Source: Streptomyces sp. DG1A-41
GTDB taxonomy: Bacteria; Actinomycetota; Actinomycetes; Streptomycetales; Streptomycetaceae
Assembly (NCBI RefSeq): GCF_037055355.1
Contig: NZ_CP146350.1
Location: 3,123,001-3,187,000, forward strand
DNA: 64,000 nucleotides
Direction: 5' to 3'
The notes under the pieces were generated by a model. That model had not been told where the DNA came from and did no database searches. It worked only from the letters and a program-made list of their open reading frames with translations. The position numbers and the translations under genes are program-made. Below, in pieces: positions 27,482 through 43,678 of the stretch (the stretch's first letter is position 1; every line of letters begins with the position of its first letter).

Positions 27482-28146
27482 CGGTGCTCCACCTGGCAGA
27501 CGAGGGGGAGGCGGCGGATCTCGCGGCCTTCCTCTCCCGGCTGCTCCACTACGACCGTGGGGCCGCGGTGCGCCTCCAGGCGGCGGGCACCGCCCTGGCC
27601 GTGTTCGGGCGGCCGCCGTCCTTCGAGGTGCTGGCCGTGCGAGCGGTGCGGCTGGCCAAGCCGTACGAGGACGGGCTCGACGTCACGCTGGACGTGACCG
27701 TGTCCGCCGGTGAGCTGCTGGAGTCGGTGGACGAGAGGGGCGCCACGGCGGTCGTGCCGGGTGCGGTGACCGGGCCGCCGTGGGCGGGCGTGCTGCCGCC
27801 GCGCGGTGGCTGGCGGCCCGAGCCGGGGCTGCCGGCGCCCGACGCGCTGCGGTCCCTCGTGGCCGCCGCCGTCGCCGAGTTCCGGTCCCGTACGCAGGAG
27901 TTGCCGCCGGAGCGGCGTACGAGGGCCGAGCTGGACCGGATCGGGCGGGACATCTGGTCCCGTGCGGTCGGCGACACCCGGCTCCCGGTCCGCGCCGTGC
28001 ACGCGGCACAGTCCCTCGGCTTCCTGCGGCCCGGCGTGCCACTGGGGCTGTTCTCGTCGGGCGCGTGGCTACGGCTGCGCACGCCGTACGGGTCCATCGC
28101 CGTACGACAGGCCGGGCTCGGGGCGTTGGACGTCAGCGTCCGCTGA
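27478..28146 (+). CDS. Conserved hypothetical protein downstream of thioesterase
   Basis: A 222-residue soluble protein starting MTVLHLADEGEAADLAAFLS. It has an alpha/beta N-terminal half (AVRLQAAGTALAVFGRPPSF, EVLAVRAVRLAKPYEDG) and a C-terminal part with a conserved-looking FLRPGVPLGLFSSGAWLRLR. There is no signal, membrane helix or known catalytic motif. The third gene of the ettA operon by 4-bp overlap, it may be linked to translation or CoA metabolism by position only. Confidence 0.8.
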   Translation: MTVLHLADEGEAADLAAFLSRLLHYDRGAAVRLQAAGTALAVFGRPPSFEVLAVRAVRLAKPYEDGLDVTLDVTVSAGELLESVDERGATAVVPGAVTGPPWAGVLPPRGGWRPEPGLPAPDALRSLVAAAVAEFRSRTQELPPERRTRAELDRIGRDIWSRAVGDTRLPVRAVHAAQSLGFLRPGVPLGLFSSGAWLRLRTPYGSIAVRQAGLGALDVSVR

Positions 28147-28167
28147 CCCTCGCGACGCCCCTGCGGG

Positions 28168-28581
28168 TCAGCCCGGGGTGTTGACCATCGACGCCGCCGC
28201 GTACGTCAGGTAGTTCCACAGCGTCCGCTCGTGCTCCTCGGAGAGACCGAGCTCCTCGACGGCGACCCGCATGTGCTTCAACCAGGCGTCGTGCGCCGCA
28301 CGGTCGACCGTGAAGGGCGCGTGCCGCATCCGCAGGCGCGGGTGGCCGCGGTTGTCGCTGTACGTCGTGGGGCCGCCCCAGTACTGGACGAGGAACAGCG
28401 TGAGGCGCTCCTCGGCCGGTCCCAGGTCCTCCTCGGGGTACATGGGCCGCAGCAGCGGGTCCTCGGCGACTCCCTCGTAGAAACGGTGGACGAGCCGACG
28501 GAAGGTCTCCTCCCCGCCGACCTGCTCGTAGAAGGTCTGCTCCTGAAGCGTGCCGCGCCGAATCTCATTCACGCCCCCCAT
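28168..28581 (-). CDS. glbO: Truncated hemoglobin, group II (trHbO)
   Basis: A 137-residue globin. TFYEQVGGEETFRRLVHRFY is the start of the 2/2 fold, followed by DPLLRPMYPEEDLGPAEERL, the proximal-His region RMRHAPFTVDRAAHDAWLKH with the group II Trp at G8, and TLWNYLTYAAASMVNTPG. It binds O2 or NO and is thought to aid oxygen supply or detoxification in actinobacteria. The start ATG is at 28581; GTG at 28572 (MNEIRRGTLQ) is an equally good alternative. It is convergent with the ettA operon and divergent from the methyltransferase. Confidence 0.95.
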   Translation of the reverse strand: MGGVNEIRRGTLQEQTFYEQVGGEETFRRLVHRFYEGVAEDPLLRPMYPEEDLGPAEERLTLFLVQYWGGPTTYSDNRGHPRLRMRHAPFTVDRAAHDAWLKHMRVAVEELGLSEEHERTLWNYLTYAAASMVNTPG

Positions 28582-28647
28582 GCTCTCAGACGTGAGGACA
28601 TAGGACTCAAGGCCTAGGACCGGCCCCGGTGCCCTTACTGTGGGGGT

Positions 28648-29630
28648 ATGGGCGGGCATGCACCCGACAGGGAACAGGACGATCTCGCCGTCTCCGCGCG
28701 GGCGGCGCTGGTGCGCCGGATCGACGCGAGCGGGGCCTGGGCCGCCGACCCGGTGTGGCGGGAGGCGTTCGCGGCGGTCCCGCGCCACCTCTTCGTGCCG
28801 TACTACTACGTCGGCGTCGCCGACGGCTACGAACGCCGGTGGGGCGAGAGCCCCGACCCGCAGGCGCGCCAGCGGTGGCTGCGGGGCGCCTACGAGGACA
28901 CCCCGCTGGCGACCCGGCTGCGCGACGGCGAACTGCTCTCCTCCAGCAGCCAGCCGTCCCTGATGGCGGACATGCTGGCCGTGCTGCGTGTGGAGGACGG
29001 GAACACGGTCCTGGAGATCGGCGCCGGCACCGGCTACAACGCCGCGCTGCTCGCCCACCGGCTGGGCGACGACCACGTCACCACCGTCGATCTCGACCCG
29101 GAGATCACCGAGTCGGCCCGCCGGCACCTGGCCGCGGCCGGATACCACCCGGTCGTCGTCACCGGCGACGGCGCCCGGGGCGTGCCCGAGCGCGCGCCGT
29201 TCGACCGGATCATCGCCACCTGCGCGCTGAGCACCGTGCCGTGCGCCTGGCTCGCCCAGAGCCGCCCCGGGGGCCGGATCCTGATGCCGCTCGCCACCGG
29301 CCTGGTCGTGCTCACGGTGAGCGACGCCGAGCACGCCGAGGGGCGCTTCCTGCACACGCCCGCCTACTTCGTGCCGCTGCGCGGCGGAGCCGGCCCGGGG
29401 GCGAGCCGCTCCAGCTGGGCGGTGTACCGCGTCGGGCCAGGGAGGACGACCTGTTCCGTTTCCTGCTGGCCCTGACCCGCGGCAGCCTCGACCCGCAGGA
29501 GGCGCACGCGCTGTGGGAGCAGGAGGGCATGCCGCAGCGCGAGCGCTACGGCATCACCGTCAGCGGGGACCGGGAGTGGGCCTGGCTGGACGACCCGGAG
29601 GGGCCGTACGCCTGGCCCCTCCCGTCCTGA
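28648..29630 (+). CDS. PIMT-type SAM methyltransferase, interrupted by one-base deletion
   Basis: From the ATG at 28648 (MGGHAPDREQDDLAVSARAA) a 260-residue Rossmann methyltransferase can be read, with motif I VLEIGAGTGYNAALLAHRLG, acidic loop VDLDPEI and motif VTGDGARGVPE, all as in protein-isoaspartate methyltransferases. At GTCGGGCCAGG (G run 29434-29436) the frame slips. With one more G the protein would continue AREDDLFRFLLALTRGSLDP and end YAWPLPS at 29630, about 326 residues. TACTGT 7 bases before the ATG and no ribosome site suggest a leaderless mRNA. In actinobacteria such enzymes also modify ribosomal peptides, but no precursor is visible nearby. Confidence 0.85.
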
Positions 29631-29672
29631 GCCTGGCTCCTGTTCTGAGCCTGACTCCCTGTCCTGAGCGGC

Positions 29673-31055
29673 TCAGCCGCGGCGGATCGTGATCGTCGTC
29701 CAGGCGCCCACGTGTACCCGGTCGCCGTCCTGGAGCGGTACCGGGACGAACGGCTGGATGGGCTCCTCCGAGCCGTTGACCGTCGTGCCGTTCGTCGAGT
29801 TCTGGTCGACGACCGCCCAGCTGCCGTCGGGCTGCTGGACCAGCACCGCGTGCTGGTGCGAGACGCCCGGGTCCTCCGGCGGCACCGAGAGATCGATGTC
29901 GGGGGTGTCGCCGGTGGAGTGCCGACGGCGGCCGATCGTGATCTGGTTGCCGGTGAGCGTGCGCTGCTGCTCGGGCGAGTACGCGGGCAGGTTCAGACCC
30001 GCGGCCTCGGGGCCGGAGCGCTGCATCATCGCCATGAAGTACTCGCGGTCCGGGGCGATGGTCGCGGTCCAGGTTGCCGGTCCCTGGGGCGCCTGGGGCT
30101 GCTGCGGGAAGCCGCCGGGGCCGGGAGGGGCCTGGGTCGCGCCGGGCTGCGGATAGCCGTAGCCACCGCCCTGACCGCCGCCGGGGCCGGGAGGGGCCTG
30201 GGTCGCGCCGGGCTGCGGATAGCCGTAGCCACCGCCCTGACCGCCACCGGGGCCGCCGCCCGGGCCGGTGGACGACGGCGGGGAGAGCACCCAGTCGTCA
30301 CCGCCACCGCCGAAGGACTGACCGCCCTGCTGCGGACGCTGGGTCTCCTGCGGGAACCCGGGAGGAGCTGGCGGGCCTGACTGCTGGAAGCCCTGCGGAG
30401 CGCCACCGGGGCCACCATGGCCACCCGGCGCACCGGGCCCGGGCGGCGGCGGGACCGGTCGCGAGGGGTCGGCACCGAATCCGGGCGGGCCGGGAGGACC
30501 GCCGGGGCCGCCCGGGCCGCCGGGCCCACCCGGACCCCCAGGACCGGGACGGCCGCCGGGGCCCGGGTGGCCCGAGGGCTCGCCGCCGAAGGGCGGGATC
30601 GGCTCGGCCGGGCGGTTCACCTGCGACGGGCGGGAGCTCTGGTACTCGTACGAGTCACCGCCGCCGTACGACGGACCAGACGGACCTGACGGGCCGGGCC
30701 TGCCCGGCGGCTGGAAGCGCACGCCCGGGCCGGGCGGGGGCGGGGCGGCGGGCGTGTACGAAGTCGCCGTGTTCGTCAGGAAGTTCCACCGGCACTCCTC
30801 GCAGAACGGTGCGCCGCCCTCACGCGGCGTACGGCACTGCGGGCAGAGCTCCGGCTCCGCGTTCGGTACGGCGGACAGGTGCGGAGGGCGCCCGCCGTGG
30901 GGGCCACCCGGGCCGCCGGGGGGCGGGAAGCCGTAGCCGCCGCCGGGCGGGGGCGGCGGGGGAGGAGGCGGAGGCACGGCACCCGCCATGCGGTGACCGC
31001 AGACCTCGCACCAGTCGTCGGAACCCGACTGGTGTCCGTTCGGGCAGGTCGGCAT
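29673..31055 (-). CDS. Zinc-ribbon / Pro-Gly-rich / FHA-domain protein
   Basis: A 460-residue protein. Two zinc ribbons come first (CPNGHQSGSDDWCEVCGHRM and CPQCRTPREGGAPFCEECRW). About 230 residues of Pro/Gly/Gln-rich low complexity follow, with a perfect 22-residue tandem repeat, then a C-terminal FHA domain (about 360-455: ITIGRRRHSTGDTPDIDLSV, VSHQHAVLVQQPDGSWAVVD, NSTNGTTVNGSEE) that binds phosphothreonine. It is the last gene of the leftward pknG cluster. By analogy with GarA/OdhI it could be a phospho-dependent output partner, but it lacks an obvious N-terminal TQ/ETTS phosphosite. Confidence 0.92.
   Translation of the reverse strand: MPTCPNGHQSGSDDWCEVCGHRMAGAVPPPPPPPPPPGGGYGFPPPGGPGGPHGGRPPHLSAVPNAEPELCPQCRTPREGGAPFCEECRWNFLTNTATSYTPAAPPPPGPGVRFQPPGRPGPSGPSGPSYGGGDSYEYQSSRPSQVNRPAEPIPPFGGEPSGHPGPGGRPGPGGPGGPGGPGGPGGPPGPPGFGADPSRPVPPPPGPGAPGGHGGPGGAPQGFQQSGPPAPPGFPQETQRPQQGGQSFGGGGDDWVLSPPSSTGPGGGPGGGQGGGYGYPQPGATQAPPGPGGGQGGGYGYPQPGATQAPPGPGGFPQQPQAPQGPATWTATIAPDREYFMAMMQRSGPEAAGLNLPAYSPEQQRTLTGNQITIGRRRHSTGDTPDIDLSVPPEDPGVSHQHAVLVQQPDGSWAVVDQNSTNGTTVNGSEEPIQPFVPVPLQDGDRVHVGAWTTITIRRG
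30115..30246. repeat. 66-bp tandem duplication inside the FHA gene
   Basis: Two back-to-back 66-bp units (30115-30180 and 30181-30246) differ only at the last base and encode the 22-residue repeat with GGYGYPQPGATQAPPGP. Near-identity implies recent duplication or gene conversion, and copy number may vary between strains. Confidence 0.9.
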
Positions 31056-31087
31056 GTCGGCGCGTCCCTCCTTCGATTCCTTCTAGG

Positions 31088-32434
31088 TCACTTCTTCACG
31101 CGAACAGTCTTGGTGGACCGGGTCTCGAGCGTCATCTCGTCGGCCTCTTCGACCTTCGCCTTCAGTCGCACAGTACCGGTCGCGGCATCGACCACGTCCA
31201 CCACCTTCGCAAGCAGTTTCGCAGTATCGGCGTTCCCGGAGGCACTCGCGAGCTGAACGGCCCGGCCCAGTTTGGCCGTTGCTCCGTCCATATCTCCCGA
31301 CTTACGAAGATCCAGCCCTTGTTGGATGACTTGCGCCAGTTCCGCCTGCCCGGTGTAGTGGGCGACTTGGGGGTTGATCGACGTCGAGGCGACCATGTCG
31401 TCCGTCCACACGGCGCGGACCAGGCCCTGCGCGCCGAGGTTCTGAACGGTGCCGTCGGGCCGCGGAATGACCAGCGAGATCCGGGCCGCCAGCATCTCCT
31501 GCCCGATGTTCGCGGCCGGGACCTCCACGCATACGTGGTAGTCACGGGACTCGTCGCCCCAGGAACCCAGGGGGTAGTCGCCGGCGCGCGGGCCCGCCTC
31601 GGTGCGCCTGTCGGTCAGTTCCTCGACCGTGGGCGCGACCTGCTTGACGAACTTCACGGTGGTGTCGACCGGGGTCCACAGCCGCAGGGAGACGTCCGCG
31701 ACCTCCTTGCCCATCGCCGTCTCCATCATCTGCGTGAAGTCGGCGGCGAGCCCGGCCGGGTCGGCGACGATGTCGGCGGTGCCGAGCAGGGCGGAGGCGA
31801 TCCCTGTGACTTCTTTCACTTCCCAGTCGGTGCCCACGCCGCGCGCGTCACAGGTGAAGCGCCCCGCGCACACGTCGAGCGCGGCCTTCAGGTCCTGGGG
31901 TGCCTCGTGTTCGTTGCGGCCGTCCGTGAGCAGGATGCCGTGCCGGATGGCGACGTCCGCGGAGGACAGCAGGCGGTCGGCCAGTCTCAGCCAGGTGCCG
32001 ATGGCCGTGCCGCCGCCCGCGCTGAGCGAGCGCAGCGCCCGTTTCGCCTGCTCGCGGGTGGTGGCGTCGGCGACCGCGAGGCGACCGCCGCCCGGGTAGA
32101 CCTCCTTGGCCACGTGCGTCCCGCCGATCACCGCGAAGTGCACGCCGTCGCGCAGGGTGCCGATCGCGGCGGCCGTGGCGTCGCGGGCGTTGCGCATCTT
32201 GGTCGCCGGGTAGTCCATCGACCCGGAGCAGTCGACCATGATCACCACGGCCGCGGACGGGCCCTGGCCGGGCGAGAAGAGGTGGGGCGCCGAGACCGCG
32301 CTGCCGATCGTGCCGCCGCCGGTCGCCGTCACCGTGACGATGGCGTTGACCTCGCCGGCGCCCTCCGGCAGGTACTCGTTCTGGTACACGTCCACCGAGA
32401 ACTGGGGCACGTTCGACTTCGAGAAATTGGCCAT
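31088..32434 (-). CDS. von Willebrand factor A domain protein of the pknG cluster
   Basis: A 448-residue cytoplasmic protein (no signal) starting MANFSKSNVPQFSVDVYQNE. The vWA domain has an intact MIDAS motif DCSGSM near residue 69, with the supporting Thr in SAGGGTAIGT and Asp in LLTDGRNEH. A beta-rich middle and a helical C-terminus (LAQVIQQGLDLRKSGDMDGA, LLAKVVDVVDAATGTVRLK) follow. It lies between the PP2C and FHA genes on the same strand and may be a scaffold for the kinase/phosphatase pair. Confidence 0.93.
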   Translation of the reverse strand: MANFSKSNVPQFSVDVYQNEYLPEGAGEVNAIVTVTATGGGTIGSAVSAPHLFSPGQGPSAAVVIMVDCSGSMDYPATKMRNARDATAAAIGTLRDGVHFAVIGGTHVAKEVYPGGGRLAVADATTREQAKRALRSLSAGGGTAIGTWLRLADRLLSSADVAIRHGILLTDGRNEHEAPQDLKAALDVCAGRFTCDARGVGTDWEVKEVTGIASALLGTADIVADPAGLAADFTQMMETAMGKEVADVSLRLWTPVDTTVKFVKQVAPTVEELTDRRTEAGPRAGDYPLGSWGDESRDYHVCVEVPAANIGQEMLAARISLVIPRPDGTVQNLGAQGLVRAVWTDDMVASTSINPQVAHYTGQAELAQVIQQGLDLRKSGDMDGATAKLGRAVQLASASGNADTAKLLAKVVDVVDAATGTVRLKAKVEEADEMTLETRSTKTVRVKK

Positions 32435-32552
32435 GCCTGCTTCGATCCCCCTCGAAAGCCCCCACCGGAGCGGGGTGATGACGGTAGGCGGACCGGCCCC
32501 CTCCGGTCCGCTGAGGCATCCCCGTAACGCGGCCTCAGGCCGATCCTGCCCC

Positions 32553-33997
32553 CTACGGCACGGCCGGGAACGGCACGAGGGCCACTGTTACGTTGTCGTG
32601 GCCCCCGCCGTCCAGGGCGTGGCCGACGAGCACCCGGGCGCTGTGCAGCGGATGCCCGGCCGCGTCGAGCGGGACGACCCGGGCCATCTCCTCCGCCGCC
32701 TCCGCGTAGTTCCACAGGCCGTCCGTGCAGACGACGACCACCCCAGGCCGATCGGGCTTGAACGCGGCGGTGTGCGGCTCCAGTTCATAGGCGTCCGCGC
32801 CGAGCCAGCCGGTGATCGCGTGGGCGCGCTCGTCGGCGTAGGCCTCGGCCTCGCTCATCAGGCCCGCGGCGACCATCTGCGCCGCCCACGAGTCGTCCTC
32901 GGTGAGCCGGGCGGGGGGCGCGCTCCGGTCGACCGGGACCCAGTAGGCGCGGCTGTCGCCGACCCAGCCGACGATCAGCAGGCCCGAGGTGACCACGGCG
33001 CCGACGATGGTGCACGCGGGCGCGTTCTGGTGCGGGGCGTGCTCGCGGGCCGTGGCGGGCTCCGCGGCGAGCGAGTTGACCGCGCGCGAGGCGGCGATGA
33101 TCGCGTCGTGCATCGCCTGCTGCGGGTGCGTGCCGCGCGGCAGGGCGGTCAGCAGTGCCTCGCTCGCCGCCTTCGACGCCGCCATCGAGGCGTCGTCGGG
33201 GCGGGTCGCCGAGGAGACTCCGTCGCAGACGATCGCCACGGAGGCGGGCGAGCCGTCCGGCAGCGCGGTACTGCCGATGGCGAACGCGTCCTCGTTGCGG
33301 TGGTGGCGCAGGCCGCGGTCGCTGACCGCGGCCACCGGGCCGGACTCCTGCTCCATGTGGTCCCGTTCGCGCGGCTGGGCGTGGCCGCAGTTCTCGCAGT
33401 AGCCGTCGTCGTCCACGCGGCCGGCCCGGCAGGCCACGCAGACCTTGCCGCCGGAGCCCGCGGCCTGGGCCGCCGGGTCGGCGGACACCCGTGGGTCCGG
33501 TGCCTGGAGGAGGTACTCGTCGGGCTGCTGTGCTTGGTAGGTCTCGGAGTGTGCCGGATATCCCTCGGGCTGTGGGGCGTAGCCGGGCGGCACGGGGTGT
33601 CCCCGGCCTGGGGCGGATGGTCGAAGCGGACCCCCGCTGCCGGGGCCGGCGGGGCGCTGGGGGGCGGGGGGGTGTCCGGGGGCAGGACGGAGCCGCCCGA
33701 GTCCGTGCCCGGGAGGTCCGTCGGCAGATGCGCCGCTTGCGATCCGCCCGCGCCGTCCGGCCCGGGGACGGGCCAGGCCGCGCCCGCGGGTGGCACCGAG
33801 GGCGGCTCGGGATACGCACCGGCTGCCGGAGCGCCCTGCGCGGGCACCGAGCCGTTCATGGTGATGGTCGGGTTGTCCTCCGGCCGTGCCGGCACGGCGG
33901 ACAGGTCGTATCCGCACGCGCCGCAGAAACGGTCACCCGATTCGAGGGGTTCCTCGCAACTCGGGCAGGCGGACAACTGGGGCATCTGCGACATCAA
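32553..33997 (-). CDS. PP2C Ser/Thr phosphatase with zinc ribbons, interrupted by one-base deletion
   Basis: The start MMSQMPQLSACPSCEEPLES has a zinc ribbon and a Pro-rich linker up to FDHPPQAGDTP. There the frame fails at a G run on the plus strand (33594-33597, four where five are expected). In the second frame it resumes VPPGYAPQPEGYP, a second zinc ribbon (VCVACRAGRVDDDGYCENCG), and a PP2C domain with RHHRNEDAFAIGS, IVCDGVSSATRPDDA, GWVGDSRAYWV and DGGGHDNVTVALV, the last two carrying metal-binding aspartates. The full protein would be about 482 residues. It is the natural antagonist of the kinase upstream (1-bp separation from the pknG stop). Confidence 0.9.
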
Positions 33998-36652
33998 CTA
34001 CACCCACGTCCGGGGGCGGTAACGATTGGCACGTTCCACCAGGTCGATCCTCTCCTCGCCGCCCCGCGCCAGCCGGGCCAGCGTGCGGTACGAGCGTTCC
34101 AGGCCGAAACGCAGGCCACGCTCGTCCAGGCCGCTGCCGAGCAGCGTCCGTCCCCCGGCGGCCGGAGGGGCGGAACCCTGGCCCCCGGAGAGTACCCAGT
34201 CCAGCGCGCAGCCGAGGACTTCGGCCGACAACTGCTCGCGGCGCGCCGGGTCCAGACCGTACGCCTCCAGCGCCTCGACCTGCGCCGCGGCGGCCGTGAG
34301 GTCCTCCAGAAACACGTCCGAGGCGGTCGCCGTGCGCTGCCGCAGCCGCGCCCGGACGGCGGCCACGCGCGCTGCCGTGTAGTGGATGGAGGACTCCGGG
34401 ACCGACTCCAGCGTCCGTACCGCGCTGCGCCGGTCCCCGGTCGCCAGCTGTACGCGGGCCAGTCCGAACGCGGCGCTCACATAGCTCGGGTCGGTCGACC
34501 ACACCAGCCGGTAGTACTCGGCGGCGTTGTCGAGCTGGCCCAGCACCTCCGCGCACAGGCCCAGCGCCAGCTTGGGCGCGATCTCGCCCGGGAAGGCGTC
34601 GTAGATCGCGTCGAAGGCGAGCGCGGCGCCCTCGTCGTCGCCCGTCACCAGCGCGGCCACGCCCCGGTACCAGACCACCCGCCAGTCGTCGGGCCGCTCA
34701 CCCTCCAGCGTGACCAGCGCCTCCAGCGCGGCGGCCGGATCGCCGGTCTCCAGCCAGGCCCGGATCTGCCGCAGCCGCGTCTCGATCGACGGGGCCGGAG
34801 CCACCGCGAGGGCGCCGAGCAGCTCGGCCGGGGCGGAGGTCATCAGGCCCGCCAGGAAACCGGCGTTGGGGTCGGACGGGTCGACGCGGGGGACGGGGAG
34901 GGCGAGGGCGGCGGCGGGGGTGTCGACGGGTTTGACGAGGTTGTGGGGGGTGGGGAGGCCCTGTGCGCCGCCGGGGCCCGGCCCTGTCGCGGCTCCTCCG
35001 GGCCCGGCAGCGAGCTGGGCCGCGTGGGGTTGAGAGGGGACAGCGGGCAGCGCCGCTGCCGTCGCGGAGTGGCGCCGTTTCCGCACCACCCTCGCCCCGA
35101 GCCGCGACACCTCACCGTCCAGCCTCGGGAACAACTCCGTGTCCGTGACCCGCAGCTCCGGCCCGAACAGTGTGGACAGGGCGGGCCGGGCGCGGCCCGT
35201 CTGGAGGGAGACGACCTCCCGCAGGACACCGGTCAGCTGCTCGGTCATCTCCTGCGCGGAGGCGAACCGGCGGGCCGGGTCGGGGTCCGTGGCGCGGACC
35301 AGGAGCCGGTAGAACGACTCGTACTGCCGGAAGACCTCGATGTTGTCCGGGTCGGGCAGGGAGTCCACGTAGACGTTCGTGTAGCCCTGGAAGTCGAAGG
35401 TCAGCACGGCGAGGGTGCGGGCGACGGTGTAGAGGTCGCTCGCCACCGAGGGGCCGGCCTCGGCGACCTCCGGCGCCTGGTACCCGACCGTGCCGTAGAT
35501 GGCCGACTCCTCGTCGTCCATCCTGCGCACCGCGCCCATGTCGATCAGCTTGAGCTGGTCCTCGGTCTGGATCGCGTTGTCGACCTTGAAGTCGCAGTAC
35601 AGCAGGTTGCGGCTGTGCAGATGGCCGAGCGCCTCCAGGGCCTCCAGGCCGTAGGCGCAGGCCTGTTCCACCGGCAGCGGGTCGCGCCTGCCCTGCGGGG
35701 TACGGCGGGCGTTGGCGATCTCCTTCAGCGACTTGCCGCCGACGTACTCCATGACGATGTAGCCGTCCAGGGAGCCCGTGCGCTGGTCCAGGTGCTCGAC
35801 GAAGTTGTAGATCCGCACGATGTTGGCGTGCTCGATCTCCGCCAGGAAGCGCCGCTCGGAGATCGCCGCGGCCATCGCGTCCTGGTCGCCGGTGTCCAGC
35901 AGGCCCTTGAGGACCACCCAGCGGTCGGATACCGCCCGGTCGACGGCCAGGTAGATCCAGCCCAGGCCGCCGTGCGCGAGGCAGCCCACCACCTCGTACT
36001 GGCCGTGCACGACGTCCCCGGCCTTCAGCTTCGGCACGAACGAGTACGGATGGCCGCACTTGGTGCAGAAGCCCTCCGTGCGCCCCGGTCGGTCACCACG
36101 CGCACGGCCCACCTGGGCGCCGCAGTCGGAGCGCGAGCAGAACCGCTTCCGCTCGGGCACCTCGGGGTTGTCCAGGACCATTTCGCGCGGGTCGGGCCGC
36201 GGGATCGGCGGGACCTGGACCAGCCCGGCGCCCAGCCGGCCCCGGGACGAGGAACCGGCGGCGGAGCCGGAGCTGCGCACCGACACCGAGCGGCCCGTCG
36301 CCTTGCCCGACAGGGAGCGCGAGAGGCGTCCCGACACCGAGCGGCGGGACTTCGACGACTGGGACGACGTACGGGAAGTGCGGCTGCTGGAGCGGGAGCT
36401 GCCGCTGCCCCGCGAGCCGCCCTTGCCGCCGGCGGTGATGCCGGTGGGGGATGACCCGACCATGCCGTTCGGTGCGACGACCGGGGCGAGGCCGCAGGTG
36501 TCGCAGTACAGTTCACCGCCGCCCACGTCCTCGTAGGTGCCGCCGCAGGCGGGGCGCTGGCAGGTGCGTCGCGGCTCGCCCCGTGTCTCGTCCGGTGATG
36601 GGCTCGGTGGTTCGTTCGGTGCCTGAGTCACGGACTCCCCCTTGTCGCTCAT
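33998..36652 (-). CDS. pknG: Serine/threonine protein kinase PknG
   Basis: An 884-residue soluble kinase from the ATG at 36652, which overlaps the upstream stop by 4 bp. In order: Cys motif CQRPACGG...CDTCG, a Ser/Arg-rich segment, a rubredoxin-like CxxxxC pair (CSRSDCGAQ, CTKCGHPYSF), then a kinase domain with the Gly-rich loop CLAHGGLGWIYLAVDRA, VVLKGLLD, the catalytic loop LLYCDFKVDNAIQ and LIDMGAVRRMDD in place of DFG. C-terminally there is a TPR domain (ETGDPAAALEALVTLEGERP and on). This order is characteristic of mycobacterial PknG, which controls glutamate and TCA flux through GarA/OdhI. Confidence 0.95.
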   Translation of the reverse strand: MSDKGESVTQAPNEPPSPSPDETRGEPRRTCQRPACGGTYEDVGGGELYCDTCGLAPVVAPNGMVGSSPTGITAGGKGGSRGSGSSRSSSRTSRTSSQSSKSRRSVSGRLSRSLSGKATGRSVSVRSSGSAAGSSSRGRLGAGLVQVPPIPRPDPREMVLDNPEVPERKRFCSRSDCGAQVGRARGDRPGRTEGFCTKCGHPYSFVPKLKAGDVVHGQYEVVGCLAHGGLGWIYLAVDRAVSDRWVVLKGLLDTGDQDAMAAAISERRFLAEIEHANIVRIYNFVEHLDQRTGSLDGYIVMEYVGGKSLKEIANARRTPQGRRDPLPVEQACAYGLEALEALGHLHSRNLLYCDFKVDNAIQTEDQLKLIDMGAVRRMDDEESAIYGTVGYQAPEVAEAGPSVASDLYTVARTLAVLTFDFQGYTNVYVDSLPDPDNIEVFRQYESFYRLLVRATDPDPARRFASAQEMTEQLTGVLREVVSLQTGRARPALSTLFGPELRVTDTELFPRLDGEVSRLGARVVRKRRHSATAAALPAVPSQPHAAQLAAGPGGAATGPGPGGAQGLPTPHNLVKPVDTPAAALALPVPRVDPSDPNAGFLAGLMTSAPAELLGALAVAPAPSIETRLRQIRAWLETGDPAAALEALVTLEGERPDDWRVVWYRGVAALVTGDDEGAALAFDAIYDAFPGEIAPKLALGLCAEVLGQLDNAAEYYRLVWSTDPSYVSAAFGLARVQLATGDRRSAVRTLESVPESSIHYTAARVAAVRARLRQRTATASDVFLEDLTAAAAQVEALEAYGLDPARREQLSAEVLGCALDWVLSGGQGSAPPAAGGRTLLGSGLDERGLRFGLERSYRTLARLARGGEERIDLVERANRYRPRTWV

Positions 36653-37983
36653 GCGCCCGGCCCCCTCCGGTCGTCCTCCGGCACGCCCTGGTCCGGCACC
36701 CGGGGGCCGCCGAGCAGTTCGGCGGCAGCCTGCTGGTAGCGCAGCACGGCCTGTTCGGCGGCGCGCAGGTCGCAGGGGGCGCTCCACAGCATGCGGCGGG
36801 CCTTCTCGTACCGCTCGATCAGCAGCGTGTCCTCGGCGAAGCCGTGCCGGGCGACCTTCGCCTTGTACGCGTCGAGACGGCCGCGCAGCTCGGCCCGGAC
36901 CGCCAGGGGCGCGGTGACCGCCGTCAACGACTCGCGGGCGCGCAGCAGTTCGTCCTCCGCCTTCTGCTCCAGCGACTCCAGGAGCGGGGACAGGCGATGC
37001 CACTGCGCCTGCCTGCGGTACTCCGCGGCCGCCGCCAGCTGCTCCTGCAGCGCGGTCGGCGGTCCGCTGACGACCGGCACCTCCGTCGCCGCGATCTTCG
37101 CGAGGACCTCGCCGCGGGCGGTGCGCGCCTCGGCGAGCGTACGGTCCGCGCGGCTGAGGACGTCACGCAGTTTGACGATCCGCTTCTCGGCGTCCTGTCG
37201 TACCGTCAGGACCGCGTCGATCTCCCGGCGTACGTCCTCCAGGGCGCGCGCCTCCCGGTCGTACACCGTGGTGTCCGGCCTGCCGCCGCCCGGAGCCGAA
37301 CTGCCCTCCGCGGCCTGCCAGAACGCCAGCGGGTCGGAGATCACCTGCTCGCGCAGCTTCGTGAGTGTGCGGGTGATGCGCTCCAGGTCGTCACCCGCCG
37401 GGTGCTCGCCGGGGCGCACCCCGACCGAGTGCGCGAGCCGGCGGGTGCGCTGGAGTTCGGCCGCCAGCAGATCGATCCGGGCGGGCAGCGCCGACCAGAC
37501 CGCGTCGGCCGCGACGACCATGTCCAGGCTCGTCGCGTACAGCTCGTTCATCCGGTCGACGAGGGTGGCGAGCGAGTAGCGCTCGCTGAGTTTGTTCCCC
37601 GTGCCGTGCAGGGTCGGGGCGTTGGCCGTCGCGGTGGCGCTGCCCGCGACGGTGACCGACTCGCCGTTCAGCAGCTCCGTCAGCTCCACCAGGTCCTCGC
37701 GGCTGGACCAGCGGCGGCGGGCGCGGATCTCCCGGGCGGTGCGCAAGGCGTCCGTGTACGCGTCGAAGTACGTCCACAGCAGCGTGATCGAGGCCTCCGC
37801 GGACGTCCAGCGCTCCTGGGTGACGCCGGTGAGCTCGGCGCCCTCCAGGAGTCTGCGGCCCGCGTGGTCCTGGAGGGCGAGGAGCGAGGTCTCGATCGCC
37901 TCGTGCTCCGCGCCGAGCCGCGCCAGCGCACGGTCCACCTCGTCCCGGTCCATCACCGGCCCGGTGGATCCCGTGACGCCCAT
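36649..37983 (-). CDS. Coiled-coil protein of the pknG cluster, function unknown
   Basis: A 444-residue soluble and almost entirely helical protein starting MGVTGSTGPVMDRDEVDRAL behind GAGAGGTGA. Long heptad-like regions include EREIRARRRWSSREDLVELT-type segments, LEDVRREIDAVLTVRQDAEK and LLESLEQKAEDELLRARESL. There is no signal or membrane helix. Its 3' end overlaps the pknG start (ATGA), so the two are made together. It is not part of the mycobacterial pknG-glnX-glnH locus and could be an adaptor between membrane sensor and kinase; that role is inferred from position only. Confidence 0.85.
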   Translation of the reverse strand: MGVTGSTGPVMDRDEVDRALARLGAEHEAIETSLLALQDHAGRRLLEGAELTGVTQERWTSAEASITLLWTYFDAYTDALRTAREIRARRRWSSREDLVELTELLNGESVTVAGSATATANAPTLHGTGNKLSERYSLATLVDRMNELYATSLDMVVAADAVWSALPARIDLLAAELQRTRRLAHSVGVRPGEHPAGDDLERITRTLTKLREQVISDPLAFWQAAEGSSAPGGGRPDTTVYDREARALEDVRREIDAVLTVRQDAEKRIVKLRDVLSRADRTLAEARTARGEVLAKIAATEVPVVSGPPTALQEQLAAAAEYRRQAQWHRLSPLLESLEQKAEDELLRARESLTAVTAPLAVRAELRGRLDAYKAKVARHGFAEDTLLIERYEKARRMLWSAPCDLRAAEQAVLRYQQAAAELLGGPRVPDQGVPEDDRRGPGA

Positions 37984-38031
37984 CGATCACCTCTCGCTGC
38001 GGTTGTGCCGGTTGGGGGGTCGGTGCGGTTG

Positions 38032-39102
38032 TCAGGTCGTGCGGAGGTACTGCGGTGCCGGTGGTTCCGACTTCTCCGAATCCTTGCCCAGTGTCGCCGA
38101 CAGCCATTTGTCGTACGACGCCTGCCAGCCGTTCGCGGTGTCCTTGCGGTAGTCCACCAGGATCTGGTTGACCCGGCGTACCAGATCGTCGGCTTCCTTC
38201 TTCATCGCCACGCCGTAGTACTCGGCAGTGAAGGCGTCACCCTTGAGCTGGACCGTCGGATCCTGTGCCGCCTGGCTCGCGGCGAGCGCGCCGTCGGTGA
38301 CCACCGCGTCGGCCTCGCCGAGCTGGAGCCTGACCAGGCAGTCGAGTTGGTTCGGCACCGTCGTGGAGATGTCGGTGGTGGCGGGGAGTTTGCCGTCCTT
38401 CTTGTCCGCTTCCAGCGTGGAGTACGCCGTGGAGCCCGCCGCCGTGCAGATCCTCTTGTCGGCGAGCGTGTCGTCGTAGCCCTTGATCGGCGAGGATTTG
38501 GGGGCCAGGACCTGCTGTCCCGTCTTGAAGTAGGGCGCGGAGAAGGCGACGTCCTCGATGCGTTCGCAGTTGATCGTCATCGTGCGGACGACCATGTCCA
38601 CGCGGCCGTCCTGGATCGCCGGGATGCGTTGGTTGGTGGGGATCGCCTTGAACTGGACCGCGTCCGGGTCGCCGAGTATGTCCTCGGCGATGCGGTGGAC
38701 CAGGTCGATGTCGAAGCCCTCGAGCTCCGCCGTCTTGCCGCTGTTGGGGTTGCGGTAGCCCCAGCGGTAACTGTTCTGGTCGACGCCGACGATCAGTTTG
38801 CGCTTCTCGCCTTCGCGGTTCCTGATCGCCTGGATGGTGTCGCCGTCGGCGGAGGAGGGCGACAGGGTCTGCTTCTCGGGGGCCTCGCAGTCCTCTTCGG
38901 CCTTCTCGGCCTTGACCCGGGCCGACTGGGCGACGGCCTGGTCGTCCACGGTGCCCGGTCCGGACAGCGGGACGCACAGTGCGAAGACGGCCACCAGGGC
39001 GCAGACGACCGCCATCGCGGCCACCCCGCCCCAGCCCTTCAGACTGGCCCGCAGACGTCGTGCTCGCATGGTCGCGCCCCCTTTCACCCGTGTCCCGTTC
39101 AT
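38032..39102 (-). CDS. glnH: Glutamate/aspartate-binding extracytoplasmic protein GlnH-like
   Basis: A 356-residue exported solute-binding protein. A membrane anchor or signal (GWGGVAAMAVVCALVAVFAL) is followed by Cys, but the FALC context is a poor lipobox, so it may be membrane-anchored. The SBP_bac_3 domain reads LIVGVDQNSYRWGYRNP, ELEGFDIDLVHRIAEDILG, DMVVRTMTINCERIEDVAFS and ADAVVTDGALAASQA, with the amino-acid-binding Asp and Arg regions in place. The ATG at 39102 overlaps the glnX stop. ATG 39069 with GGGGGCGA is an alternative. In mycobacteria GlnH senses Asp/Glu and signals via GlnX to PknG. Confidence 0.92.
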   Translation of the reverse strand: MNGTRVKGGATMRARRLRASLKGWGGVAAMAVVCALVAVFALCVPLSGPGTVDDQAVAQSARVKAEKAEEDCEAPEKQTLSPSSADGDTIQAIRNREGEKRKLIVGVDQNSYRWGYRNPNSGKTAELEGFDIDLVHRIAEDILGDPDAVQFKAIPTNQRIPAIQDGRVDMVVRTMTINCERIEDVAFSAPYFKTGQQVLAPKSSPIKGYDDTLADKRICTAAGSTAYSTLEADKKDGKLPATTDISTTVPNQLDCLVRLQLGEADAVVTDGALAASQAAQDPTVQLKGDAFTAEYYGVAMKKEADDLVRRVNQILVDYRKDTANGWQASYDKWLSATLGKDSEKSEPPAPQYLRTT

Positions 39103-40535
39103 CGGTACTCCGACAGCCTGCGCCCGATGCCCAGCACCGCGCCGGCGGCGCCGAGCACCGCGAGGACGGCCGCGCCTGCCGCCAGGCCCGTCAGGGCGTC
39201 CCGGCCGTCATCGGCCGCGCGCTTGAACTCGGTTTCCTCGTGTGCCAGTGCGGTGCGCAGGTTCTCGTCGACGCTGTCGAAGCACTCACCGGTCGCGTTC
39301 TCGGTACCGATGACCATGTCCAGCGCCTGCTGGTAGTTGCCCTTCTCGTCCTGCTCGCGGGCCGCGGTGTGGCGCTTCTTCCACTCCGTCATGTTGCCGA
39401 CGGCGGCGGTGACGGGGCTTTCGCCCGAGGCGTCGTCGGCGAGCTTGCCGGCGGCCGCCAGATGTTTGCCCAGCGCGGTCATGTCCGTGCGGAAGTCGTA
39501 GTCGTAGGCGTCGTAGGTCTCTTCGCCGACCTTCTTCGTCTCGGCGCCGCGGGCCACGAGGGTGAGGTTCTCGTTGCCCCGTGCCTTGAGGGAGGCGATA
39601 CGGGCGTCGTGCAACACGTTCAGGGAGCGGACGCCGTGGTCGTAGGAGTCGTTCAGGCCCGCGCGGGCGATGCTGTGGCCGACGACCAGCCAGAGGAGGA
39701 CCACGGTCGCGGCGGCCGTGGCGGCGACCAGGCCGTGGTTCAGGACGCGGTTCGTGCGCTGGTAGTTGCGGTGCTGGGCCCAGGCGAGCGCGGCCAGGGC
39801 GGCGATGCCGAGGCCGATGGCGGCCCAGGGGTAGGGCGTGGCGTCCGCGTAGTCGGCGCGCAGGCGCTGGTTCTCCTTCTTGTACAGGTCCTCCGCCGCC
39901 GGGAGCATCTGCTGCTGCATTTTCTCGTTGGCGTAGCGGAGATAGGCGCCGCCGACCGGGAAGCCCTGGCGGTTGTAGGTGCGGGCGCGTTCGACCAGGC
40001 CCTTGTACTCCGGGAGGAGTCTGTTGAGCTTGGCGATGGTCGCCGCGGACGGGGAGGTGGGGTCCGAGTTGGCGGCGGCTTTGACGAGTTTCTCCGCGGC
40101 CGTGCGGATGTCCTTCTCGTAGCGGTCGCGGGAGGCGGCCGTCTCCTGGCCGCCGGCGAGGAATCCGCTGGAGGCGGCGGTGTTGGCGTCCGCGAGGGAG
40201 CGGTAGATGTCGGCCGCGTCCGAACTGAGGGGCTGACTGCTGGTGAGGACGTCGTCGGCGGCGGCGGCGCGGTCGGTCATCTGCCAGGCGGTGACGGCGC
40301 CGAAGGCGACGACGAGGAGCGCCAGGAACGCGCCGATGATCCGGAGGCGGCCGGGCTCCGTGACGGCGGCGGCACGGAGTTGGTCCAGTCCCTCGGCGAA
40401 GGCGGTACGGCGGGGCTGAGGTCCCGTAGGACCAGGAGGCGCCTGGGCCGGTGGTACCGGTTGGGCCGGTACTGCCGGGAGGGTGGGCAGGCCCGGGCCC
40501 GTTGGTGGTGTGCCGCTCGTCGGCAGGTGTGTCAC
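39099..40535 (-). CDS. glnX: Membrane signal-transducing protein GlnX-like
   Basis: A 478-residue membrane protein. The GTG at 40535 is chosen because GGGGGAGG lies four bases upstream. A Pro-rich cytoplasmic N-terminus is followed by a helix (IIGAFLALLVVAFGAVTAWQ), an extracytoplasmic helical domain (SSGFLAGGQETAASRDRYEK), a paired helix in the middle (WAAIGLGIAALAALAW, AATAAATVVLLWLVVGHSI), a second extracytoplasmic domain and a final helix (LTGLAAGAAVLAVLGAAGAV). The two tandem sensor-like modules resemble four-helix sensory domains, and the topology fits GlnX, the partner of GlnH and PknG. It is the first gene of the cluster. Confidence 0.88.
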   Translation of the reverse strand: MTHLPTSGTPPTGPGLPTLPAVPAQPVPPAQAPPGPTGPQPRRTAFAEGLDQLRAAAVTEPGRLRIIGAFLALLVVAFGAVTAWQMTDRAAAADDVLTSSQPLSSDAADIYRSLADANTAASSGFLAGGQETAASRDRYEKDIRTAAEKLVKAAANSDPTSPSAATIAKLNRLLPEYKGLVERARTYNRQGFPVGGAYLRYANEKMQQQMLPAAEDLYKKENQRLRADYADATPYPWAAIGLGIAALAALAWAQHRNYQRTNRVLNHGLVAATAAATVVLLWLVVGHSIARAGLNDSYDHGVRSLNVLHDARIASLKARGNENLTLVARGAETKKVGEETYDAYDYDFRTDMTALGKHLAAAGKLADDASGESPVTAAVGNMTEWKKRHTAAREQDEKGNYQQALDMVIGTENATGECFDSVDENLRTALAHEETEFKRAADDGRDALTGLAAGAAVLAVLGAAGAVLGIGRRLSEYR

Positions 40536-40698
40536 TGTGACCTCCCCCATGGTCATCCGTCGCCGCAAGTATCCCTTCCGGCTCTGACATCCGCACCGGC
40601 CTTGCCCCGATCTTGATCTGATCGCAGCGCGAGGCACCACCTCTTGCCCGGAAACACGTCGGGGGAATCGGTTCGGTTCCCGTCGGGAATGCGCACGG

Positions 40699-41139
40699 CT
40701 ACTCCACGTAGCGGCGAAACCCTTGCGCCAGCGCCTTGAAGCCGCACGCTTCGTAGAAGCTGTGCACGTACGCGTCGTCCGCTGCCAGCAACTGCACCTT
40801 GTAGCAGCCGGCCGACTTCCCCAGCCGCACGGCCGCTTCCATCAGTCGACGCCCGATGCCCCGCCGCTGGAAGCAGCCGGCCACCACCACGTTCTCCACG
40901 AAGAGGACGGCCCGGCCGCCACGGGTGAGATTCGGCATCACGATGCAGTCCGCCGTCCCGGCCACCGTGCCGTCGGCCTCGGCGACCAGGACGGTCCGCC
41001 CCTGCTGCCCGGATATGGCCGCCCAGACGGCATCCGCGGCCGCTTGGGACAACGGCGCGTCGTCCGGGTTCAGTTCGCTGTAGAGACCCAGCAGCGCTGT
41101 CAGATCGGCCTCGCCCGCCGCCCGCACCCTGATCTTCAC
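40699..41139 (-). CDS. GNAT-family N-acetyltransferase
   Basis: A 146-residue enzyme beginning MKIRVRAAGEADLTALLGLY. The acetyl-CoA binding motif A is VVVAGCFQRRGIGRRLMEAA (Q/RxxGxG/A), followed by VQLLAADDAYVHSFYEACGF, as in small GNATs acting on amino groups. It is not part of the glnX operon, with about 160 bp between. The substrate is unknown. Confidence 0.93.
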   Translation of the reverse strand: MKIRVRAAGEADLTALLGLYSELNPDDAPLSQAAADAVWAAISGQQGRTVLVAEADGTVAGTADCIVMPNLTRGGRAVLFVENVVVAGCFQRRGIGRRLMEAAVRLGKSAGCYKVQLLAADDAYVHSFYEACGFKALAQGFRRYVE

Positions 41140-41185
41140 GGGCTGAGCGTAGAGCGAGGCCTGCCTCGGGGAGACCTCGGGACGG

Positions 41186-42594
41186 TCACTCCCCCGTCGG
41201 TGCCTCCCGGCGGCGGAGCACGATCAGGGTTCCCCCGCCGATCAGGACCAGGGTGATGGCGATGCCGGCGATGAGGGGGGTGACCCCGGAGCTGCCGGTC
41301 TCGGCGAGGTTGGTGTCGGTGGCCGTGCCGCCCACCGGGGCCGGGCTCGGCTCGCTGAGCGTCTGTGTGGCCGTGCCCGTCTCGCTGCCCTGGATCCGGC
41401 AGTCCAGCATCCCGGTGAAGCGCTGGGTGAAGCCGCCCGGGCCGCGGATCGTGAAGTCGTACGCCTGGTCCTCCTGGAGCGGCACCGTCACCGTTCGGGA
41501 CTCGCCCGGGGCGATGGTGTGCTCAAGGCCCGCCAGTTCGAAGGTGAACGGCTCGTCGCCCTTGTTGGACGCGATGATGTCCACGCCGCCCTCGGCGCAG
41601 TTCTTCGCCGCCGACAGCGCCGGGATCGCGCCCTCCTTCGCCCAGGTCGCCCCCGCCGTCGCCGACACCGTCGACTCGCTGGAACCGGCCAGGATCTGCG
41701 TCTGGCTCCGGCTCTCGGAGGCGAAGGCACGGCCGACCGGCACCGTGGTCGAGGCCTGCACGGTCAGTTCCGCCGTGCCGGGCGCCGCGTCCTCGGGCAC
41801 CTCGAAGAACACCTGTCCGCCGTCGTACGTGGAGGTGACGGCCTTGCCCTGCTTGTCGACGATCCGGACCCCGCTCGTGGCGGCGTCCGCGGGCGGGCTC
41901 ACCGTCACGCTGCCGGCGTTCGTGTGCACCGTCACCGGACCCAGCCGCTCCCCGGCCGGCCGGAGACCGCCGGCGGGTCGAGGGTGAGCGAGGCCCGGGG
42001 CTCCGGCAGGCTGCGGGCGTTCTTCTCCAGGTAGTCCGCGAGCTGCTCGGCCTGCGGGTCGAGCGCGTCGACGGCCACGTCGTCCGAGTACCGCCAGATC
42101 GCCACCTGTGTGCCTGCCGCCGCGTCCTGCTCGGTCAGCGCACCGCGGACGCCCGCCTTCCGTGCCAGCGCCGCGAGGTCGTTCACCTGCGGGTAGGAGT
42201 TCTGGAGGATCCAGCGGATCCGCCCGGCGTCCTTGTTGGCGCCCAGGGACGTGCCGCTCCAGGGCGTCTCGTGGTACTTGGCGTCCCGCTGCGTCGGGTT
42301 GTGCAGGTCGACGCAGTACGTCTGGAGCATGCCGCCGCCCTCGACGGACATCTCGAACAGGCCCGCCGACACCTGCTGGTCCCCGGTGTCGCCATGTATC
42401 ACCGCGGTGCCGTACGTCTTGAGCCCGGCTGTCGTCGCGGTCGCTCCGCCCTGACTCCGCGTCGTCTCCTCGGCGGCCGCCTGGCCGACGCCGGCCAGCA
42501 CGCCCGCGGCGACAAGCCCGGACACGAGCGTCGCGGCACCGAGGCGGGCGGCCCCTCGCCTGCGTACGAACACCGCGGAGAACGAAGCAAACAC
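41186..42594 (-). CDS. Thioester-domain LAXTG surface protein, interrupted by one-base deletion
   Basis: The GTG at 42594 (AAAGGGA upstream) gives a signal peptide (AATLVSGLVAAGVLAGVGQA) and a thioester domain with LQTYCVDLHN and AAGTQVAIWRYSD, the Cys and Gln that form the internal thioester. At the C run 41950-41953 one base is missing. With it, GRPGERLGPVTVHTNAG would connect to beta-sandwich repeats, a Thr/Pro stalk, NLAETGSSG (LAXTG sortase E signal), a membrane helix and the RRRE tail. The full length is about 469 residues. Such proteins attach covalently to host or environmental surfaces through the thioester and are sorted to the Streptomyces aerial-hyphal wall. Confidence 0.9.
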
Positions 42595-42872
42595 CAAATT
42601 CCCTTTCGAGCAGGACCCGTTGACGTGGGGGGTACGGTCCCACCTGCAGAATCGGAAGCCTCGCAGGCCACAAGAGCCTCGAGAACCATGCCCGGCATCC
42701 TAGGTATGCGGCGGACGCCTCTCGCCGGTGGGACGGTCGGACGAGTGATCCGACTCGGAATCGTTATCGCCAAGACCCCTTGTGAGCAGGGCTTATCGAC
42801 AAGTCCACCCCCGATTTTCGGTGCGTACTCGCCGATAAGCCGCAGTCCGGGCAGACAAGCGGGTGATTGATG

Positions 42873-43349
42873 TCATGTCAACATGACGGATTCCGGGGGT
42901 TGTTGAGAATGAGCGCCCGTGGGATTCGGCGAACCGGCCAGGGGTGTCCCCCAGTTGGGTTCGGGCTGCGTCGGCGCGGACACCGTTTCCGGCTTGCCTG
43001 CGCGGCGGAACGCCGAGGTGCCCCAGGCCAGGTCGTGTCCGATCGCGACCGCGTCGATGTCCGTCGAGGTCCAGCTCTGGCCCTCACGCACGTCGGTCCG
43101 GACCTTCAGCCTGCCCTGTACGATCACGGGCTCGCCCACCGTCAGCGACGCCGCCGTGTTCGTGGCGAGCTGGCGGTTCGCCCACACCGTGAAGAAGTTG
43201 GTGTGCCCGTCCGTCCACATGTTCTTCTCGCGGTCCCAGTAGCGGGCGGTCGCCGCCAGCCGGAACCTCGCCGACGGGCCGGACGCCATCTCCCGGTACA
43301 CCGGCTGCGTCGCCACCCTGCCGACCGCGCAGACCATGGTCTCGTTCAT
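42873..43349 (-). CDS. ssbB: Single-stranded DNA-binding protein, SsbB paralogue
   Basis: A 158-residue OB-fold protein starting MNETMVCAVGRVATQPVYRE. Core strands are ARFRLAATARYWDREKNMWT, FFTVWANRQLATNTAASLTV and PVIVQGRLKVRTDVREGQSW. The C-terminal tail lacks the DDDIPF-type acidic tip, which points to the SsbB paralogue and not the replicative SsbA. Its location next to dynB matches the locus in S. coelicolor, where SsbB supports chromosome segregation at sporulation (from memory). Confidence 0.93.
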   Translation of the reverse strand: MNETMVCAVGRVATQPVYREMASGPSARFRLAATARYWDREKNMWTDGHTNFFTVWANRQLATNTAASLTVGEPVIVQGRLKVRTDVREGQSWTSTDIDAVAIGHDLAWGTSAFRRAGKPETVSAPTQPEPNWGTPLAGSPNPTGAHSQQPPESVMLT

Positions 43350-43678
43350 CGCGAACCCCTCCCTCGCCCGGACTGCGACGCCGGGCCTACATGCGTACGA
43401 GCCCGTCCCGTACGGCTGTGTCTGTCAGACTGCCGCCGCCGGGCCGAGCCCGCTGAGCACTGTGGATCACCGTCCGCCTGTGGATAACGCCGCCCCCCGG
43501 ACGGGTGATCCCAAGCGGTGAGGGATGCCGAGCGGCGAGTGATGCAAGGGGGCGGGTCACGCCGAGTCGGGGTGACGCCGAGTGACATCTGCGGCCCGTC
43601 ACAACCGCCACGCCCCGGAGTCACCGTCCCGGCCAAGGCGTCACCACCCCCGCACAGGCGCCGCCCCCTACGCAGGCG
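43350..43678. other. Intergenic region between ssbB and dynB
   Basis: 329 bp without a convincing gene. It holds the ssbB promoter region (GGGAGGGG ribosome site at its left edge) and short direct repeats of GCCGAG/GGCGAGTGA and ACGCCGAGT (about 43525-43585). No terminator-grade hairpin was found by eye. Confidence 0.5.

Follow-up and report, generated by a model that had tools for sequence, protein, structure and literature searches.

Gene content and organization of the locus

The 64,000-nucleotide stretch of DNA analyzed here (the window; C1:3123001-3187000) belongs to a single-contig genome of 8.99 Mb whose closest relatives are Streptomyces. It contains a locus of seven genes around the Ser/Thr kinase gene pknG, all on the minus strand and read from 40640 to 29673 in the order glnX, glnH, CC (for a predicted coiled-coil protein), pknG, PP2C, vWA and FHA. 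The place, strand and family of each gene, as given in a preliminary description of the sequence, were confirmed by family profile matches. The glnX gene (39099..40640) encodes a membrane signal transducer of the GlnX family (NF058618, 511.7 bits in the profile search, cut-off 250); its coordinates are those of the open reading frame (ORF), and the true start is probably near 40556 or 40535. The solute-binding sensor encoded by glnH (38032..39102; SBP_bac_3 in Pfam, 93 bits) has M. tuberculosis GlnH as its top PDB match (6h2t, E 3.2e-42). The product of pknG (33998..36652) has the complete rubredoxin, kinase and PknG TPR architecture in the Pfam scan (PknG_rubred PF16919, 104.2 bits; PF00069, 87.9 bits; PknG_TPR PF16918, 297.7 bits; PDB 2pzi, E 1.4e-169), preceded by a predicted N-terminal zinc ribbon, and gives the single PknG_rubred match in the whole genome. 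The vWA protein (31088..32434) carries PF18571 (VWA_3_C, the vWA C-terminal domain; 80 bits) and has a full-length solved homologue, PDB 4fx5 (E 2.6e-137, query residues 6-448), an entry listed as 'von Willebrand factor type A' with no function named in its row. The FHA protein (29673..31055), rightly described before as Pro/Gly-rich with a zinc ribbon, reads as two predicted zinc ribbons (CPNGHQSGSDDWCEVC, 30999..31046, and CPQCRTPREGGAPFCEEC, 30792..30845, both taken from the ORF), a Pro/Gly linker and a C-terminal FHA domain at about 29706-29942 (PF00498, 61.5 bits over residues 372-450).

The genes were said to be joined by 4-bp overlaps or short gaps. Start and stop codons share 4 bp at glnX/glnH and at CC/pknG, and the gaps are 48 bp between glnH and CC as measured from the ORF starts (78 bp if CC starts at 37953), 3 bp between pknG and the likely ATG of PP2C at 33994, and 32 bp between vWA and FHA; the 118 bp between PP2C and vWA do not fit that statement. 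No sigma-70-like promoter was found in 28000-42700. The five terminator-like sites in the same interval are all on the plus strand, opposite to the genes, and shuffled sequence gave a mean of 3.1 (sd 2.1).

The PP2C gene (32553..33994; PP2C_2, 50.3 bits in the Pfam scan) holds the phosphatase as described, with a different N-terminus. Its catalytic frame covers 32553-33917, and the reading from GTG 33917 is not likely to give the N-terminus, judging from related loci, where PP2C starts at an ATG equivalent to 33994, 77 bases before the GTG and 3 nt past the pknG stop. There the protein opens with zinc ribbon 1, and ribbon 2 and the catalytic domain come after. In the window, predicted ribbon 1 (CPSCEEPLESGDRFCGAC, 33914..33967, counted by hand from ATG 33994) is out of frame with predicted ribbon 2 (CVACRAGRVDDDGYCENC, 33387..33440, in the catalytic frame) and with the catalytic part, the switch lying in the Pro-rich linker between the two ribbons. 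Both ribbons are in one frame in 69 of 74 relatives by the strict pattern; of the remaining five, L082, L101 and L104 are spelling variants, L039 has a frame like that of the window, and L107 is ambiguous. The frame change in the window is possibly an assembly error in the GC-rich linker, or else a real mutation.

The CC gene (36649..37983) precedes pknG in 80/80 close relatives. Its product, previously called a coiled-coil protein, is all-helical in a structure model for which 31 close relatives gave a shallow alignment (mean predicted local distance difference test 81.4, predicted TM-score 0.69), with a long hairpin of helices 230-290 and 302-370. Comparison of the model with the PDB gave no match at E <= 0.001. 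The top match, an F-BAR fold, reached an E of only 0.11 and was not used. A divergent CC-like ORF, recognized by eye from similar C-terminal ends, precedes pknG in loci of the families f7, f83 and f109 (family labels are those of this analysis).

Recurrence of the block with pknG

Close relatives were taken as the best 80 of 555 PknG relatives, namely 79 Streptomyces and one 'Actinobacteria bacterium'. All seven genes are present in order in 62 of these 80 loci, and the other 18 are in order until the contig ends. The bacterial globin gene directly downstream of FHA (28168-29355, minus strand) is kept in the same 62 loci. Because the relatives are close and this control gene is equally kept, synteny within Streptomyces is weak evidence when taken alone, and it was rejected as proof of a functional unit. 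One further locus of the Streptomyces family (L202, genome G369) has broken glnX, glnH, pknG and vWA next to intact-looking CC, PP2C and FHA, which is either decay or poor assembly.

A second set comprises 80 places with pknG or a pknG-like gene, mostly from other families, 74 of them outside the Streptomyces family. A module was counted where PP2C plus vWA and/or FHA share the strand of pknG and lie no more than 9 kb from it. By this definition 48 of the 74 places carry a module, 4 are ended by the contig, and 22 are short or partial. The 48 are spread over f7, f83, f89, f90, f98, f109, f41 and two genomes of f3, which by inference is a Mycobacteriaceae-like family; the 22 consist of 15 from f3, 2 from f113 and five f89/f90 loci (L151, L154, L167, L169, L193) that retain some parts and are without one or more others. 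In most f89 loci the glnX and glnH matches come after FHA, not before pknG. No globin match above 22 bits lies near pknG in the loci outside Streptomyces, the only ones being of 20-22 bits, on the opposite strand, in two f3 loci. The module locus was also found in one genome outside the class (G189).

Co-occurrence was counted in 394 genomes of the class. PknG_rubred is present in 144 and PF18571 in 101; 97 have both, in agreement with the earlier expectation that the extra genes accompany pknG. The odds ratio is about 100, calculated on 96 and 143 genomes with the weak match of G369 left out. Among the matches listed, at least 81 of 120 PF18571 places have a PknG_rubred place no more than 8 kb away on their contig (median 4.6 kb); the 39 without a listed one include 33 from f90. 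PF18571 without PknG_rubred occurs in G410, G478, G501 and G658, the matches in G478 and G501 being weak. PknG without PF18571 was seen in 47 genomes, 32 of them from f3. In the genus of the window (n=40), 38 genomes, among them G369 with its decayed-looking locus, have both and two (G635, G667) have neither.

Predicted zinc ribbons are a further feature of the module. Those of PknG and PP2C are new, only that of FHA having been named before. A strict Cys pattern was found in 51 of 54 PP2C, 42 of 48 FHA and 4 of 53 vWA ORFs, in none of 173 glnX, glnH and CC ORFs, and in 6 of 4,794 other mechanically called ORFs of at least 150 aa from the same loci, most of which are no real genes. The PknG ribbon (CQRPACGGTYEDVGGGELYCDTC, 36494..36562) stands before the rubredoxin domain in all 74 module PknGs from close relatives. 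In other module loci it follows the strict pattern in 36/49 and, with the last Cys optional, in 43/49, since the last Cys is replaced in part of f90. The six misses are L149, L162, L163 and L185 from f89, which have a ribbon without the aromatic residue, and the truncated sequences L143 and L202. Neither pattern is found in any of the 18 short-operon kinases of f3 and f113, and both f3 module PknGs have the ribbon. Partial loci are mixed (f89 2/4, f90 0/1, Streptomyces paralogues 4/5).

These data support the view that pknG and the extra genes form one set: several actinobacterial families have the block, PF18571 tracks PknG, and catalytic and binding residues are conserved. The main alternative is that the genes are conserved neighbours only, PknG acting solely on its known target GarA and PP2C-vWA-FHA forming a separate unit kept by shared regulation or chromosomal inertia. 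The retained globin speaks for it, as do loci that keep pknG and lose vWA or FHA, and GarA-type matches (E <= 1e-25), present in 381 of 394 genomes, are much more widespread than pknG. Yet in other families the block stays beside pknG and the globin does not, almost all genomes with PF18571 also have pknG, and the N-terminal ribbon of PknG, which the 18 short-operon kinases of f3 and f113 lack, is found in both module copies of f3. Mere neighbourhood is rated unlikely, at perhaps one chance in a few.

A proposed phospho-switch and its known counterparts

Catalytic and binding residues are strongly conserved in the module proteins. PknG residues K249, D354, N359 and D371, which we take to be catalytic, are each at 1.00 in 95 rows. 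In PP2C, the presumed metal-binding residues D232, G233, D399 and D441 stand at 0.90, 0.89, 1.00 and 1.00 in 72 rows, and in FHA the residues assumed to bind phospho-Thr, R376, S399 and N422, at 0.97, 1.00 and 1.00 in 63 rows. The vWA metal-ion-dependent adhesion site (DxSxS...T...D; D68, S70, S72, T143, D171) is at 0.99-1.00 in 69 rows. The same vWA alignment (matches with 150 bits or more; close relatives sampled at one in four) ends in a conserved tail with the consensus DEMxLDTxSTKTxR (core LDTxSTKT), which in the window is DEMTLETRSTKT (31106..31141, minus strand). Within it Leu436 is conserved at 96%, Asp437 at 64% (Glu in the window), Thr438 at 77%, Ser440 at 97%, Thr441 at 83%, Lys442 at 58% and Thr443 in 69 of 69 rows, which makes the tail a candidate phospho-docking site. 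Some Streptomyces carry a second, divergent PknG-like kinase with vWA after the kinase (L197, L198, L200, L201), preceded in L197, L198 and L200 by a CC-like ORF; the vWA tail of L197 and L198 reads (L/V)DST(R/K)T and is followed by a fused zinc ribbon. These paralogous loci are a possible mini-version of the module.

The interpretation favored here, at a probability of roughly 0.55, is that the locus represents the full, probably ancestral, actinobacterial GlnH-GlnX-PknG nutrient-sensing system, in which PknG would phosphorylate the vWA tail, FHA would dock on it and PP2C would reverse the modification. The conservation, co-occurrence, conserved active-site residues, Cys patterns, tail motif and tree position of the short operon were computed; every binding, metal-binding and phosphorylation step is inferred, and so is the direction of evolution, which depends on the root of the tree. 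A small amino acid would be bound by GlnH outside the cell, and GlnX would relay the signal across the membrane and switch PknG on, a route that the literature proposes for the short operon. PknG would then most likely phosphorylate a Thr of the vWA tail, and perhaps also the Ser/Arg-rich linker in its own N-terminal region. The FHA protein would act as reader on the vWA phospho-Thr and PP2C as eraser. The zinc ribbons predicted in the N-terminal regions of PknG, PP2C and FHA might help to keep these components assembled, or adjust them to the metal or redox state. The probable metabolic output would still be GarA.

Several observations weigh against this interpretation. Five f89/f90 loci are incomplete; four genomes have PF18571 without PknG_rubred, and 39 PF18571 places are not near a listed pknG place; the background for the Cys pattern was taken from ORFs that are mostly not genes; and ribbon 1 of the window's own PP2C is out of frame. 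Cys patterns of the ribbon type are common, and the likeness between these ribbons may be convergent. The earlier suggestion of a 'self-contained' circuit is also not supported, since the gene for GarA, the established substrate of PknG, lies at another place in the genome.

The GarA orthologue lies at C1:1313410 (L222), about 1.8 Mb from the module. It scores 187.9 bits, below the 200-bit cut-off of the OdhI model, and has the ETTS motif and a predicted zinc ribbon of its own; the known GarA output is thus probably kept. An additional possibility is that the module FHA serves as an alternative GarA, binding 2-oxoglutarate dehydrogenase or glutamate enzymes. Its fold is weakly related to GarA (6i2q, E 0.0025) and its gene lies beside the kinase, yet it reaches only 23.1 bits with the model that gives the true GarA 187.9, and no ETTS motif was seen by eye in its sequence. 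On these scores the module FHA was rejected as GarA itself, and such an alternative role is very improbable.

On the input side, M. tuberculosis GlnH contacts its ligand through Arg147, Lys161, Thr162, Ser164, Arg169, Trp232 and Asp250, with side-chain contacts from Arg147, Thr162 and Trp232 according to the part of PMC6069109 consulted. In the window, where the pocket maps to VVRTMTINCER (38560-38592) and TVPNQLDC (38338-38361) on the minus strand, the equivalents of Arg147, Thr162, Arg169 and Asp250 are kept, Lys161 is replaced by Arg and Ser164 by Thr. Trp232, which touches the side chain of the ligand in M. tuberculosis GlnH, is Gln here and in 13 of 14 further rows of the Streptomyces family (f1), the fourteenth being gapped. 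The position is Tyr in 27/27 rows of f89, Trp in 15/16 of f3 and 2/2 of f113, and varied in f90 and f7, in an alignment that is less sure for distant rows. An acidic ligand is plausible for this GlnH from its pocket residues. The sensing of Asp/Glu as in mycobacteria is not simply transferable, because Trp232 is Gln here and the set of three side-chain contacts is incomplete.

The GlnH-GlnX-PknG-GarA/OdhI pathway of Mycobacterium and Corynebacterium likewise has the sensor, the membrane protein and the kinase encoded by a single operon (PMC6069109, PMC8546545), and GarA is shared as well, given its gene in the genome of the window. Compared with it, the window adds CC, PP2C, vWA, FHA and the predicted N-terminal ribbon of PknG, besides the substitution in GlnH. 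The available passages of these two papers do not mention PP2C, vWA or local FHA neighbours, some of which may be drawn in Fig. 2B of PMC6069109 on operon conservation; the word 'phosphatase' does not occur in either main text. In the titles, abstract beginnings and passages covered, no description of the seven-gene locus was found; the passages of PMC1262709, the one paper found for PknG together with vWA, do not describe it.

The closest precedent for a switch of PknG, vWA, FHA and PP2C, as inferred here, is archaeal. In Sulfolobus acidocaldarius, ArnC phosphorylates the vWA protein ArnB in its C-terminal domain, PP2A reverses this, and the FHA protein ArnA is the partner (PMC7472852, as excerpted). 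The likeness, drawn from the description, lies in a kinase and a phosphatase that work on paired FHA and vWA proteins in a nutrient-linked setting; the differences are the archaeal host, a PP2A phosphatase and, in the excerpt, no GlnH/GlnX input.

Two kinase-PP2C-vWA sets of other kinds suggest a further explanation, namely that the locus is a conflict module of the TerY-P or GAP1-N2 type, serving in stress or defence, with the GlnH/GlnX input added. TerY-P joins vWA, PP2C and a kinase with a zinc ribbon in neighbouring genes (PMC11090510, in part; matched by domain), and the actinobacterial GAP1-N2 theme places PP2C and a lone vWA beside a kinase that often bears a fused zinc ribbon (PMC7159879, in part). 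The kinase of the window moreover matches several PADLOC kinase models. However, the other six proteins have no PADLOC match, no defence effector was recognized in the operon, and two of the Pfam matches of the kinase are PknG-specific. The ribbon of the TerY-P kinase is C-terminal, whereas here it is N-terminal and accompanied by a TPR C-terminus, sensor genes and an FHA gene; on the position of the ribbon, membership in TerY-P was rejected. No Ter or restriction gene was found among the seven genes or the scanned neighbours. At the centre of the GAP1-N2 theme stands the gene of a GAP1-N2 GTPase (PMC7159879), and the general Pfam scan of the seven genes, which was not aimed at GAP1 models, returned none. 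A conflict module is regarded as improbable.

The mycobacterial short operon and neighbouring genes

A tree of 87 PknG rows was calculated with a quick method, with Shimodaira-Hasegawa-like approximate likelihood ratio test (SH-aLRT) supports and a midpoint root. On it, the short operons of f3 form a clade (support 100) that adjoins the pair of module copies from f3 (99 for both together), and then f113 (96). The enclosing set (support 95) contains 30 other rows, all from f89, of which 25 bear the module. As the short operon is placed among module lineages on the midpoint-rooted tree, it is probably reduced: the simplest reading is an ancestral module of which the mycobacterial line lost a part, while further losses happened locally and transfer perhaps played a role. 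The earlier statement that the extra genes are not described for the mycobacterial system then understates the case, the mycobacterial operon itself looking like the derived form. Two features of the tree count against this direction. The module label needs 11 changes (shuffled mean 25.6), so that parts come and go, and the quick, midpoint-rooted tree has long outgroup branches; with the root on the f3 short clade, loss becomes gain.

The predicted N-terminal ribbon of GarA was considered as a marker of the module. In 91 loci it is missing from 33 of 33 in f3 (31) and f113 (2) and from one f6 locus, and present in the other 57, with or without pknG. By genome label it was found in 32/32 module-bearing genomes, 25/26 without clear pknG and 0/33 with the short operon; these labels were set by the authors, many from family searches and only some from loci that were read (a pknG locus was read in 11 of the 31 f3 genomes). 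Exceptions are G469, labelled 'module' without vWA/FHA at the locus, G600, ended by its contig, and G719 and G640, which have a short operon and a module copy. The GarA ribbon follows lineage whether or not pknG is present and was rejected as a module marker, another point against the favored interpretation.

A bolder version is put forward tentatively and with clearly less confidence than the interpretation of the locus as the full sensing system. It would make the mycobacterial operon what is left of an older actinobacterial phospho-switch, with PknG writing on the vWA tail, the ribbon-bearing FHA protein reading it and PP2C erasing it. The ribbons of PknG, PP2C and FHA, and those of GarA outside the mycobacterial line, would build a single metal-tuned complex that couples nutrient sensing to a second output besides GarA. 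The PknG literature, in the portions cited here, deals with Mycobacterium and Corynebacterium; in the present set, most Mycobacteriaceae-like loci are without four of the seven module genes. If the full module works as proposed, it would supply PknG with a dedicated phosphatase, a reader and a scaffold, together with a concrete candidate phosphosite in the Thr of the vWA tail, and would connect the sensing of amino acids with a further output in Streptomyces, which produce antibiotics. In Saccharopolyspora, the erythromycin yield was doubled by a phosphoablative GarA (PMC12321487, in part).

Upstream of glnX, the gene at 41186-42673 (minus strand) encodes a protein with a C-terminal LAETG sortase signal (NF041528, 52.7 bits). 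Farther along, two adjoining genes for dynamin-like GTPases (43621-45552 and 45556-47310, minus strand) lie beside an SSB gene (42873-43349).

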